Source: an uncultured Planctomycetaceae bacterium (GTDB lineage Bacteria; Planctomycetota; Planctomycetia; Planctomycetales; Planctomycetaceae). Taken from it: 46,643 nucleotides of DNA. The translations under genes and the position numbers were made by a program. The notes below the pieces were generated by a model. The model made no database searches and had not been told where the DNA came from. It saw nothing but the letters and a program-made list of their open reading frames with translations. Positions 22,341 to 25,681 of the stretch are shown one piece after another. Numbering within the stretch: position 1 is the first letter of the stretch; every line of letters begins with the position of its first letter. The stretch spans positions 1 to 46,643 of the forward strand of contig CAIOKE010000135.1 in the NCBI GenBank assembly GCA_903858815.1, in the 5' to 3' direction.

Positions 22341-24050
22341 ATGGACACATTGATCATCGGGCAGGGCCTTGCCGGATCCGCACTCGCGTGGAATTGCCAC
22401 TGGCAGGGCGACCGGGTGAAATTGTTGGCAGCGGAAAATCTGCCCACGGCATCCAGCGTAGCTGCAGGGCTGGTGATGCCGATTTATGGACATAAATACA
22501 GTATTATTGATCGTTTTAAGCAAAAATTGGAGTTGGCAGAGGGGTTCTTCAGGCACGTCGAGCAGCATCTAAATACTGATATTCTGTTCAGACCTCTAAG
22601 AATTCTGCGACGATTTCGGGATGCTGAAGATCGTCGGTATTTTCTGCAGGAGCGATACGAATCGGTGGCGGGCTGGGTGCAGCTGCAGCTGGGTGGGGAT
22701 GGACAGGCGACGGGTTTTGTGATGTCGGGCTGGAAGTTGAACGTGCCCTCCTATCTGGCACAGACTCGTCAGTATTTCCAGAATCGGGGCCAGTTTTTGG
22801 CCGCTGAGCTGGAAATCGCTACAGACGTTGTTCCTTGTTTTGATCAGGTTCAGTTACCTCGTCTGGGTTTGGTGGCTGATCGATTATTTTTTTGTCAGGG
22901 GGCTGTGGGCAGCCAGCAGTGGAATCCGTGGTTTCCGGGCGTGCCGGATCATCCGTTGCGGGGTGAGATTCTGCAGATTTCGACGGAGTGTGTGTGTGAG
23001 TTGTCCGGGGCTGCGGTGTCGTCAGGTGGTTGGGATGCGGTGGTTGACGAGCATTGGCTGGTTCCGGTGGAGGGTGTGGCGGGGCATTTTCTGGTGGGTG
23101 CGACGTACGACCGTGAGCGGGTAACGATCGATGCGGAGGGTTCAGCGGGCGGCTGGGACGGCACGACAGCGAGTGGGCAAAAGGAGTTGAGTACAAGTGC
23201 ACAGCGGTTGTTGTTTCAGGGTGGCATGGGTGCTGGTCAGCATATGGTGGTCAGTCATCGTGCGGGAATTCGTGCTGGTACAAGGCGTCGTCAGGTCCTG
23301 GCGGCGTATCATAGGGAGCAGCGTCGTCTGGGAATTCTGAATGGTCTGGGTTCCCATGGCACACTGCTGGCTCCGGCGGCGGCGGCTGAGTTGCTGCGGC
23401 AGTTTGACGGGGGATGTGGGCAGGTGAGAGAGCAGACGGAACCGGTGGTTTCGGGAACAGTTCGTCGTCGCAGTGGTCTGACAGAGAAGGCTCAGACGAT
23501 TGTGCGTCGTGCGGTGCGAGCTGGGGACTGGGTGCTGGATGCCACCGCGGGTAATGGTCATGACACCGTTTTTCTGGCTCGTCTGGCCGGTCCGGAGCGG
23601 GTTCTGGCGGTGGATCTGCAGCCGGCAGCGATCGAGAAGACGGGTCTGCTGCTGGCACAGGAGGGGTTAGCGGGTGTAGGATTGGTGACAGCCGATCATG
23701 CCGACGAGTTAGAGCGTTTGTCGGTGGCTGACGCTGGGGTGTGGTGTGGTCGATTTGGTGCAGTGATGTTGAATCTTGGTTATCTGCCGGGCGGTGACCA
23801 TGTGCTTGTGACAAAGGCAGAGACCACGGTCAGGGCTTTGCGTGCGGCCTGTCAGCTGCTGCGAGCGGGAGGAGTTTTGACGGTGCTGTGTTATCGGGGT
23901 CACGCGGGTGGACCTGAGGAGTACTCAGCTGTTCGCGAGGAGGCGGGCAGGCAGCAGCAGTGTCAGGTGGATGAAATAGCGGCTGGTACAGGGAATCCGA
24001 CGGCCCCGGTGTTGTTTGTTTTTCGCAGGAACGCGACTGTCAGAGAGTGA
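22341..24050 (+). CDS. FAD oxidase (MnmC(o)-like) fused to YtqB/MnmM-like methyltransferase
   Basis: A 569-residue two-domain enzyme. Residues 1 to about 370 form a DAO-type FAD oxidoreductase: dinucleotide-binding IIGQGLAG at 5-12, SSVAAGLVMPIYG, and at the C-terminal end of the domain HRAGIRAGTRR plus LGILNGLGSHGTLLAP (334-340 for NGLGSHG), as seen where MnmC oxidase domains end. Residues about 380-569 form a class I methyltransferase of the YtqB/MnmM (rRNA_methylase) family: VLDATAGNGHDTVFLARL (motif I, Ala401-Thr409) and NLGYLPGGD (478-486). In E. coli, MnmC makes mnm5(s2)U34 in tRNA by removing the carboxymethyl group and then methylating; in Bacillus, MnmM does the methylation. The fusion therefore probably does both steps, with domain order opposite to MnmC. 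The substrate is inferred, not shown. It starts nine bases after the SHD1 gene. Confidence 0.85.
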   Translation: MDTLIIGQGLAGSALAWNCHWQGDRVKLLAAENLPTASSVAAGLVMPIYGHKYSIIDRFKQKLELAEGFFRHVEQHLNTDILFRPLRILRRFRDAEDRRYFLQERYESVAGWVQLQLGGDGQATGFVMSGWKLNVPSYLAQTRQYFQNRGQFLAAELEIATDVVPCFDQVQLPRLGLVADRLFFCQGAVGSQQWNPWFPGVPDHPLRGEILQISTECVCELSGAAVSSGGWDAVVDEHWLVPVEGVAGHFLVGATYDRERVTIDAEGSAGGWDGTTASGQKELSTSAQRLLFQGGMGAGQHMVVSHRAGIRAGTRRRQVLAAYHREQRRLGILNGLGSHGTLLAPAAAAELLRQFDGGCGQVREQTEPVVSGTVRRRSGLTEKAQTIVRRAVRAGDWVLDATAGNGHDTVFLARLAGPERVLAVDLQPAAIEKTGLLLAQEGLAGVGLVTADHADELERLSVADAGVWCGRFGAVMLNLGYLPGGDHVLVTKAETTVRALRAACQLLRAGGVLTVLCYRGHAGGPEEYSAVREEAGRQQQCQVDEIAAGTGNPTAPVLFVFRRNATVRE

Positions 24051-24062
24051 AATTCGAGGACT

Positions 24063-25040
24063 ATGAGAGAACTGCATCAACTTGATCAGCAGCAGGACGC
24101 CGTCCGACTGGCTGGCTGGCTGGCTCGAAATTCCATTCGCGTTCGACTGGAGCAGGAAGAGAATTGCTGGGTGGTGTGGCTGGTGGATGATGCTCAGCGT
24201 GAGACTGCGCGACAGTTGCTGCAGCAGTTCCTGACGAATCCTCAGGCGGCCCGGATCAGTGCGGCTGAGGTGGATGGTTTAAAGCTGTTGAAACAGCAGG
24301 ATGCTCCGGAACCCACGCTGAATACCAACGCAGCGCGGCGTCTGAAGCGGCGTTGGTCGGGAGTCTGGTATCTGACATTCCCCGCGACGTTTCTGCTCAT
24401 CGGTCTGTCGATCCTGGTGGTGGCTGTCACGACTGACTGGCGTGCGAGTCTGCAGCAGTGTGGTCTGTTTATGCCAACCTGCAATGATGTTCAGTCGCGG
24501 CTGCTGCCGAAGCTGTTTATTCAGACGCCGCCGGATCAGTACACGGACATCGAACTGTTGCTGTTCAATCCGATGCTGCCGAATCCGGGTGGTGTGCTGC
24601 GGCGTGGTGAACTGTGGCGATTTGTCAGTCCGATCTTTCTGCATTTCGGTGTGCTGCACATTCTGTTCAATATGCAGTGGATGTGGGGTCTTGGTCGCTG
24701 GATCGAGTTTACTCGCGGCACGCCCCGTTATGTGTCGCTGGTGCTGATCACAGCCGTGATCTCGAACCTGTCGCAGCTGTACTGGAGTGGTCCGTTGTTT
24801 GGCGGGATGTCGGGAGTGGTGTTTGGCCTGATCGGATATACGTGGATGAAGGGTCGCACAGCTCCGGAAGACGGCATCGGTCTGCCTCAGGATCAGATCG
24901 TGTATTCGATTTTCTTTCTGTTGATCTGCATGACGGGTGCTTTGGGTCCGATCGCCAACGCGGCTCATCTGTCGGGATTTGCTGTGGGGATCGTGCTGGG
25001 GATGCGAAAGAAACTGTGGCGACGTCTGCGGGGTTTCTGA
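24063..25040 (+). CDS. Rhomboid-family intramembrane serine protease
   Basis: A 325-residue rhomboid. GAGGA five bases before the ATG supports the start. Residues 1-85 form a soluble cytoplasmic domain of the GlpG/rhomboid N type (REL...DAVRLAGWLARNSIRV). After an anchor segment (TFPATFLLIGLSILVVAV) comes the catalytic core: HFGVLHILFNMQWMWGLG with the His/Asn pair of TM2, the GxSG motif GGMSGVVFGLIGY with nucleophile Ser250, and the partner His302 in NAAHLSGFAVG. It cleaves transmembrane segments inside the membrane; the substrate is unknown. The gene starts 12 bases after the oxidase-methyltransferase gene and is probably cotranscribed. Confidence 0.95.
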   Translation: MRELHQLDQQQDAVRLAGWLARNSIRVRLEQEENCWVVWLVDDAQRETARQLLQQFLTNPQAARISAAEVDGLKLLKQQDAPEPTLNTNAARRLKRRWSGVWYLTFPATFLLIGLSILVVAVTTDWRASLQQCGLFMPTCNDVQSRLLPKLFIQTPPDQYTDIELLLFNPMLPNPGGVLRRGELWRFVSPIFLHFGVLHILFNMQWMWGLGRWIEFTRGTPRYVSLVLITAVISNLSQLYWSGPLFGGMSGVVFGLIGYTWMKGRTAPEDGIGLPQDQIVYSIFFLLICMTGALGPIANAAHLSGFAVGIVLGMRKKLWRRLRGF

Positions 25041-25096: not shown

Positions 25097-25681
25097 ATGG
25101 TGGACCGAGCAACGAATCTGGCACTGCTGAAAGAATACGTGCAGAATCCTGGTCTGCAGCGGCACATGTTTGCCGTGGAAGCGGCATTGCGGGCATATGC
25201 CGTGAAGTTTGGCGAGGACGTTGAGCAGTGGGGTACTGTGGGACTGCTGCATGACTTTGACTACGAACGCTGGCCGAACCCACCGGATCATCCGCTGCAG
25301 GGTGCGGTGATTCTGAAGCAGCGGGGTTACAGCGATGAGATCATTTATGCGATCAAGTCCCATGCTGATTATCTGCCGGATTGTCCGCGGGTGTCACGGC
25401 TGGACAAAACGTTGTATGCGTGTGATGAGCTGTGTGGTTTTCTGGTGGCCTGTGCGCTGATGCGTCCTGGTCGACTGGAGGGGATGACAGCGAAGTCGGT
25501 GCGGAAGAAGATGAAACAGGTGTCGTTTGCTGCTGCGGTCAGTCGGGATGATATTGTGCGTGGGGCTGCGGATCTGGGTGTGGATCTTGACGAGCATATT
25601 ACTTTTCTGATTGCTGCACTGGCTCCACTGGCCACCGAACTTGAGCTGCAGCCGGAGGCGGGTGCGGCGGGCGGCGAATAG
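25097..25681 (+). CDS. HD-domain protein
   Basis: A 194-residue HD-superfamily protein. The ATG at 25097 is chosen because GGAGAGGGA precedes it and the family homology begins there; the open frame continues upstream to 24614 inside the rhomboid gene and that extension is not credible. His23 (LQRHMFAVEAALRAYA) and His52-Asp53 (GLLHDFDYERW) form the metal site, with a further SHADYL segment near residue 95. These proteins are usually annotated as HDIG-type hydrolases acting on nucleotides or phosphate esters. Substrate unknown. It lies 56 bases behind the rhomboid gene and 25 bases before the glycosyltransferase. Confidence 0.88.
   Translation: MVDRATNLALLKEYVQNPGLQRHMFAVEAALRAYAVKFGEDVEQWGTVGLLHDFDYERWPNPPDHPLQGAVILKQRGYSDEIIYAIKSHADYLPDCPRVSRLDKTLYACDELCGFLVACALMRPGRLEGMTAKSVRKKMKQVSFAAAVSRDDIVRGAADLGVDLDEHITFLIAALAPLATELELQPEAGAAGGE

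Follow-up and report, generated by a model that had tools for sequence, protein, structure and literature searches.

Known Routes to mnm5(s2)U34

The last two steps in the formation of 5-methylaminomethyl-(2-thio)uridine at the wobble position of tRNA (mnm5(s2)U34) are performed in Escherichia coli and Yersinia pestis by the bifunctional MnmC, in which a flavin adenine dinucleotide (FAD) oxidase, MnmC(o), and an S-adenosylmethionine (SAM) methyltransferase, MnmC(m), share one chain. A two-component route to mnm5s2U without MnmC was reportedly described by Jaroch in 2024, in which the radical-SAM protein YtqA (MnmL) is said to make the first step and to be the partner of MnmM (YtqB) in Bacillus, with the genes in one operon; fusions and alternate arrangements are said to be mentioned there as well, so that a planctomycete fusion may already be on record in that work. 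In this study, we analyzed a gene at positions 22341–24050 on the forward strand of a stretch of 46,643 nucleotides from an uncultured Planctomycetaceae bacterium (contig CAIOKE010000135.1 of assembly GCA_903858815.1; the whole stretch is hereafter called the window), which encodes an FAD oxidase followed by an MnmM methyltransferase in one protein. In our best reading, this fusion is very probably a one-chain functional analogue of MnmC, leading from the 5-carboxymethylaminomethyl form (cmnm5(s2)U34) via the 5-aminomethyl form (nm5(s2)U34) to mnm5(s2)U34.

In the passages cited here, Cho and co-workers (2023) described the MnmC(o)-like enzyme as unknown where MnmM occurs and as likely to exist with orphan MnmC(m), Bacteroides included; they had expected an oxidase–methyltransferase fusion or operon among the genes that three Gram-positive species share and E. 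coli lacks, and none was found (PMC9976899). The part of a 2025 review cited here lists MnmC/MnmL (PMC12548931). Among titles and abstract openings, we found none naming an oxidase fused to MnmM, nor any coupling of the flavoprotein clade described below to both methyltransferases.

The Fused Gene and Its Methyltransferase Half

The gene forms a single open frame with an ATG start and encodes 569 amino acids plus a stop. Pfam detected a DAO domain (PF01266) at residues 2–351 (58.3 bits, cut-off 27.9) and the MnmM family (PF06962, formerly labeled rRNA_methylase) at residues 421–542 (93.3 bits, cut-off 22.7). With both matches over cut-off in one frame, the presence of an FAD oxidase and a methyltransferase in one protein, claimed before from the letters of the window (the sequence-only reading), was confirmed, as was the domain order, which is the reverse of that in E. 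coli MnmC according to the Pfam positions; the four motifs named in that reading were all found as well. The AlphaFold2 model of the fusion, built with 148 aligned rows, showed a mean predicted local distance difference test score (pLDDT) of 91.1, a predicted template modeling score (pTM) of 0.72, and two well-folded domains joined by a stretch with pLDDT below 50 (residues 359–377). The oxidase domain comprises residues 2–356 (22344–23408), the linker, predicted to be disordered, residues 357–378 (23409–23474), and the MnmM domain residues 379–566 (23475–24038), all on the forward strand.

In regard to the C-terminal half, the NCBIfam model for MnmM (NF053511) gave 137.8 bits on the excised domain, over the cut-off of 135, and fell 1 bit below it (134.0 bits) when the complete fusion was scored; the model was also matched at E 1e-3 by 37/37 aligned MnmM rows. 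As stated in the parts of the structural study cited here, Asp34, Asn101, Tyr104, Tyr141, and His144 of Bacillus subtilis MnmM touch U33 and the flipped-out U34, the mutants D34A, N101A, N101D, Y104A, Y141F, and H144A had almost no activity, Y104F kept about one third, and K11E and K110E were the mutants published at the lysine contacts (PMC9976899). At the five catalytic places, the window protein has Asp408 in the SAM motif ATAGNGHDT (residues 401–409; 23541–23567), Asn478 and Tyr481 in NLGYLPGGD (residues 478–486; 23772–23798), and Tyr518 and His521 in YRGH (residues 518–521; 23892–23903), respectively. Across the MnmM alignment (84 rows, representing 81 distinct sequences), the places of Asp34, Asn101, Tyr141, and His144 were kept in 84/84 rows, and that of Tyr104 held Tyr in 80 and Phe in four. 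The predicted methyltransferase part also resembled solved MnmM structures, namely 8h0s (Z 27.2, root-mean-square deviation (rmsd) 1.9 over 185 residues) and 8h1b with an anticodon stem-loop (Z 27.4, rmsd 2.2 over 187 residues). Based on model score, catalytic residues, and fold, the C-terminal half lies inside the MnmM family, as had been supposed from the sequence.

An Oxidase Clade Separate from MnmC(o) and ThiO

The oxidase half carries the FAD dinucleotide-binding motif IIGQGLAG (residues 5–12; 22353–22376), whose Gly7, Gly9, and Gly12 were kept in 120 of the 121 rows of the oxidase alignment (114 distinct sequences), with one gap. Arg311 (23271–23273), Asn334, Gly335, and Pro345 were invariant in 121/121 rows; Arg311 aligns with Arg567 of E. 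coli MnmC (numbered as in the cited part of PMC3648344) and Gly340, at the end of NGLGSHG (residues 334–340; 23340–23360), with Gly619. Eight residues of the MnmC oxidase part that are conserved to more than 98% in bifunctional MnmC were compared (Gly271, Gly273, Gly287, Gly518, Gly578, Gly619, Arg567, and Arg653), six of which are kept in the window protein; Gly578 is exchanged for Ala322, and Arg653 lies past the end of the alignment.

Comparison of the predicted oxidase part with solved folds gave Z 31.1 for glycine oxidase (rmsd 3.1, 334 residues), 30.9 for CmiS2, 29.3 for iminodiacetate oxidase, and 28.5 for MnmC (rmsd 3.4, 330 residues). VIA-align thereby puts glycine oxidases slightly over MnmC, a Z gap of 2–3 that does not decide function. 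According to the cited part of the work by Kim and Almo, MnmC1 resembles glycine oxidase, performs analogous chemistry, and evolved from such an enzyme, as they guessed (PMC3648344). The oxidations of glycine and of iminodiacetate, like the MnmC(o) step, are all directed at an N-carboxymethyl type group, the one that has to leave cmnm5U.

With the NCBIfam models, the window oxidase scored 30.9 bits (whole protein) and 32.9 bits (domain) for MnmC(o) (TIGR03197, cut-off 174.2) and 49.1 and 51.6 bits, respectively, for ThiO (TIGR02352, cut-off 250.8), about 200 bits short of the latter. Both models were matched at E 1e-3 by 31/31 rows of our oxidase profile A1. Neither cut-off was reached by the window domain or by any of five individually scored proteins of other phyla. 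A maximum-likelihood tree, made by a quick search without bootstrap and with a program warning that long branches meet, revealed three separate groups consisting of 70 clade oxidases (support 99, starred), five MnmC(o) (99, starred), and four ThiO or ThiO-like proteins. The grouping of the oxidase clade and MnmC(o) against ThiO had a support of 93, not starred, and is tentative as a rooting of the three groups. On these scores and this tree, the oxidase half belongs to a clade of its own and not to MnmC(o). The earlier label "MnmC(o)-like" therefore holds for the fold and the probable role; as a family assignment it had to be given up, with about 33 bits against 174.2 and a separate clade in the tree.

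One explanation for the scores would be that the oxidase is a small-molecule amine oxidase, e.g., a glycine oxidase of ThiO type, merely joined to MnmM, as glycine oxidases are its best sequence matches among solved structures and the ThiO model outscores the MnmC(o) model on the window protein. However, two ThiO proteins of related genomes reached 274–290 bits on the ThiO model, compared to 49–52 bits here, and were placed outside the oxidase clade in the tree; the distribution of the oxidase, treated in the following, speaks against this explanation as well.

Oxidase and MnmM in the Family

In a sample of 150 genomes of the family, the window's own included, MnmM was called by PF06962 and the oxidase by profile A1 (best match at least 223 bits, best non-member 77 bits). 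The profile was built from MnmM-linked rows and is biased in that respect, yet unlinked oxidases still reached at least 223 bits compared to at most 77 bits for non-members. MnmM was identified in 87 and the oxidase in 88 genomes: both genes occurred in 87, MnmM alone in none, the oxidase alone in one (G397, 79% complete), and neither in 62 (Fisher p = 6e-42). Counted by genus, with any member sufficing, the numbers for both, MnmM only, oxidase only, and neither were 27, 0, 1, and 30 (p = 1e-15); both tests treat related genomes as independent, which they are not. Since oxidase and MnmM accompany each other so faithfully, it is very probable that the former is the missing partner of MnmM and readies the tRNA base to be methylated. 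Its presence in 87/87 MnmM genomes, unlinked cases included, and an oxidase–mnmM gene order common to Planctomycetota, Verrucomicrobiota, and Gammaproteobacteria make a mere small-molecule oxidase highly improbable.

The 87 pairs comprised 46 fusions (one frame of at least 500 amino acids, window included), 32 adjacent pairs, and nine unlinked ones, four of these on one contig at least 130 kb apart and five on different contigs of draft genomes. When the fusion was used as query against 392 planctomycete genomes, full-length relatives with 38–40% identity were encountered in G307, G344, and G291, besides the window genome itself, and many more family genomes had separate oxidase and MnmM genes that adjoin in this order on one strand. 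The fusion is natural and no assembly accident, since it recurs in 46 of the 87 genomes with the pair and since the nearest relative found, locus L075, has the same fusion together with four matching flanking genes. On the tree (subset of rows), the fused and adjacent states require at least four changes, so that joining or splitting of the two genes took place on several occasions. A 720-amino-acid MnmM fusion in G259 (L026) was rejected as an artefact, in which an unrelated gene overlaps in another frame.

As a separate observation, 62 of the 150 family genomes had neither the oxidase nor MnmM, and MnmC(m) (PF05430) matched in seven of the 150, at most 5 bits over the cut-off of 22, five of these matches being in frames of 1050–1130 amino acids. 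The 62 genomes without the pair and without a convincing MnmC(m) may stop at cmnm5U.

The Oxidase Clade beyond the Family

Profile A1 was also searched against genome contigs, and the best 80 of 566 loci were analyzed, some of which repeat genomes of the planctomycete set; their taxon labels are those of the record titles. MnmM was found in 34 of these 80 loci, in the same frame in 10, all Planctomycetota, and in the next frame downstream in 24. A cultured planctomycete, Thalassoglobus neptunius KOR42 (L098), also carries the pair. Outside Planctomycetota, the oxidase lay directly before mnmM in 14 loci, namely four of Verrucomicrobiota, nine of Gammaproteobacteria, including Methylococcales, Sedimenticola, and Ectothiorhodospiraceae, and one of Hyphomicrobiaceae, and thus the stand-alone oxidase relative beside ytqB in other phyla that had been forecast was indeed encountered. 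Inside the clade, planctomycete, gammaproteobacterial, and Bacteroidota rows were mostly found in groups of their own. Both Hyphomicrobiaceae rows were placed among planctomycetes, so that the single alphaproteobacterial pair may be due to transfer or a binning error. Locus L081, titled Bacteroidales, likewise grouped with planctomycetes, and its genome yielded MnmM but not MnmC(m); here, a misbinned contig or gene transfer comes into question.

Whole genomes were followed up for 50 of the 80 loci, i.e., the 46 without an adjacent mnmM and four of the 34 with one. MnmC(m) (PF05430) was present in 25 of them and MnmM in 16 (unlinked in 12 of the 46, and in 4/4 controls), none had both, and nine had neither (Fisher 8e-7). 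Classic MnmC(o) (TIGR03197) was over cut-off in 0/50 oxidase genomes. The genomes with MnmC(m) belonged to Bacteroidota, plus UBP8 (L116), and on the tree the oxidase must have exchanged MnmM for MnmC(m), or the reverse, at least twice. MnmC(m) was not found beside the oxidase in any of the 80 loci, using one E. coli MnmC(m) query and flanks of up to 4 kb, many of them shorter, with a reach in Bacteroidota that was uncontrolled; in 24 of the 25 genomes it lay on another contig or far from the oxidase (for G551, the place of the oxidase is not listed). The link in Bacteroidota is therefore one of co-occurrence only, and it may largely reflect common descent.

The nine genomes without either methyltransferase (L085, L088, L095, L109, L120, L123, L125, L144, and L148) may in part reflect missing data, as many of the 50 genomes are metagenome bins and completeness is not given for them; Emticicia aquatica (L144) is an isolate. 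They would also suit an oxidase that belongs to the wobble-uridine pathway and acts at another step or intermediate, such as a tRNA-specific shunt or another side group, with MnmM using nm5U34 that MnmE/MnmG make with ammonia. According to the cited part of PMC3648344, nm5U34 can come from MnmE/MnmG without MnmC. The substrate assigned here to the oxidase is deduced indirectly. In contrast, the fold group of glycine oxidase, iminodiacetate oxidase, and MnmC suits the removal of an N-carboxymethyl group, and an oxidase accompanied by one or the other nm5U methyltransferase, never by both, is best fitted by the MnmC(o) step, so that we regard another step as quite unlikely. A reading of the clade as the cmnm5U34 oxidase of bacteria without MnmC(o) appears rather probable to us: it would be an enzyme separate from MnmC(o) and neutral as to its partner. 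In Planctomycetota, Verrucomicrobiota, and some Proteobacteria it would work with MnmM, to which it became fused in planctomycetes, and in Bacteroidota with orphan MnmC(m). The sequence-only reading had offered this oxidase as a candidate partner of MnmM in other phyla; it is not the general partner, since in Bacillus that role reportedly falls to MnmL and five planctomycete genomes outside the family (G058, G071, G107, G017, and G259) have MnmM without the oxidase.

Pathway Context and Proposed Mechanism

The window genome showed no match for MnmC(m) (PF05430) and a single one for PF06962, the fusion itself, in agreement with the assumption that neither a separate mnmC methyltransferase nor a second mnmM is present. 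An MnmL-type protein (TIGR01212) over cut-off was found in 0/28 family genomes. The same model was over cut-off in 6 of 14 named control genomes and also takes in other proteins, E. coli YhcC being one of its members. It was strong in 11 of 12 genomes of the same class from other families, none of which showed MnmM (searched with the fusion as query, not PF06962), and over cut-off in three of the five outside-family genomes that have MnmM without the oxidase.

From the observed domains, their conservation, the clade, and the fusion, adjacency, and co-occurrence of the two genes, we infer a substrate, a chemistry, and an order of steps as follows. MnmE/MnmG would make cmnm5(s2)U34, of which the FAD domain would oxidize the carboxymethyl–amine bond (the N-carboxymethyl, or glycine, group); water would then free glyoxylate and leave nm5(s2)U34, whose amine the MnmM domain would methylate with SAM, resulting in mnm5(s2)U34. 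Because the domains fold separately and the linker is flexible, the tRNA would pass between them probably by release and rebinding and not through a channel. This mechanism is proposed because of the identity of the MnmM half, the close coupling of the two genes across several lineages, the group of folds to which the oxidase belongs, the lack of MnmC(o) over cut-off in 50/50 oxidase genomes, and, as a weak argument, the lack of an MnmL-type protein in 28/28 family genomes.

Several results weigh against this assignment, among them the low MnmC(o) score of the oxidase, its closer approach to the ThiO model, and the nine oxidase genomes without either methyltransferase. The genome does encode MnmG (817.6 bits, over cut-off), so the check for mnmG and mnmE turned out positive in this part; for mnmE, the sole candidate (G000:C169:10367-11083; L228 988-2097) is divergent (134 bits; cut-off 380), and its frame of 369 amino acids ends without the usual C-terminal part. 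Bacterial MnmE ends in an FC(I/V/L)GK motif. In addition, the 28 family genomes negative for TIGR01212 include five without the oxidase–MnmM pair, which is why the absence is not specific and lends weak support, and G071 and G107 (L028 and L027, of one other planctomycete family) have MnmM without this oxidase and without TIGR01212 over cut-off. In the MnmM half, Lys11 and Lys110 of the B. subtilis enzyme are replaced by Gln385 and His487, respectively. Over the 84 rows, the Lys11 place holds His in 54, Gln in 26, and Lys in one, and the Lys110 place Lys in 47 and His in 31; both lysines are functional residues of MnmM, taken as polar or basic contacts, and need not define the family. Finally, the window oxidase lacks residues common in its clade, e.g., Asp30, which is exchanged for Ala.

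The Window's Own Copy and Its Neighborhood

Besides this exchange, the clade signature TPxTG reads MPIYG in the window oxidase, and the window and L075 form a long branch in the tree. The fusion is 65% identical between the two, compared to 80–95% for four flanking proteins, so that in this lineage the function of the oxidase might have drifted, changed, or been lost, with relatives retaining it. However, a fifth flanking protein shares only 71% identity, and for the 374-amino-acid frame just upstream no counterpart was detected in L075 at E 1e-8, hence other genes of this region change fast as well. The ratios of nonsynonymous to synonymous change (dN/dS) against L075, about 0.29 (oxidase part) and 0.22 (MnmM part) at a synonymous distance of about 1, indicate purifying selection on both domains. 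Together with the retained Gly7, Gly9, Gly12, Arg311, Asn334, Gly335, and Pro345 and the high-confidence predicted fold (mean pLDDT 91), this renders a drifted or lost function unlikely, and we retain the reading of the window fusion as an analogue of MnmC.

Upstream, the gene is flanked by the said 374-amino-acid frame, which had no Pfam match, and downstream by genes for a rhomboid protease with a Rhomboid_N domain (24063–25040, forward strand) and an HD-domain protein (25121–25681, forward strand), both identified by Pfam and found in the same order in L075. None of the three flanking frames scanned resembled tRNA-modification genes.

Comparison with Known Systems

Like the bifunctional MnmC of E. 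coli and Y. pestis, the window protein is a single chain that unites an FAD oxidase with a SAM methyltransferase, here probably likewise serving the final two steps towards mnm5(s2)U34, with an oxidase fold resembling that of MnmC at a Z of about 28.5; it differs in the reversed order, in having MnmM instead of MnmC(m), and in an oxidase of another clade. Its C-terminal domain shares family, catalytic residues, and fold with MnmM (YtqB) of B. subtilis and Staphylococcus aureus, from which it is distinguished by its fusion behind an oxidase and by Gln and His in place of Lys11 and Lys110. In the MnmL–MnmM pathway the first step is reportedly made by a radical-SAM protein, in contrast to the flavin oxidase here. 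Among solved structures, ThiO glycine oxidase, CmiS2, and iminodiacetate oxidase IdaA come closest in fold to the oxidase domain (Z 29–31); these are free-standing enzymes acting on small molecules.

A record of Neisseria gonorrhoeae (NZ_CP119142.1; L234, 384173–397321) likewise holds both MnmM and a flavin oxidase for this step; there, MnmM lies about 3.5 kb upstream of MnmC(o) on one strand and the MnmC(o) chain has no MnmC(m) part, a search confined to that chain. Unlike the window oxidase, that of Neisseria is a genuine member of MnmC(o), with 417.5 bits at a cut-off of 174.2, and lies outside the new clade and unfused. The fusion is no lone oddity and represents one of several arrangements of oxidase and MnmM. 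Altogether, the two halves of MnmC appear to be combined variously, with the classic oxidase near MnmM in Neisseria, the new oxidase with MnmM either fused, adjacent, or apart, and the new oxidase with MnmC(m) by co-occurrence only, and the clade described here fits the missing MnmC(o)-like enzyme of Cho et al. in several phyla.

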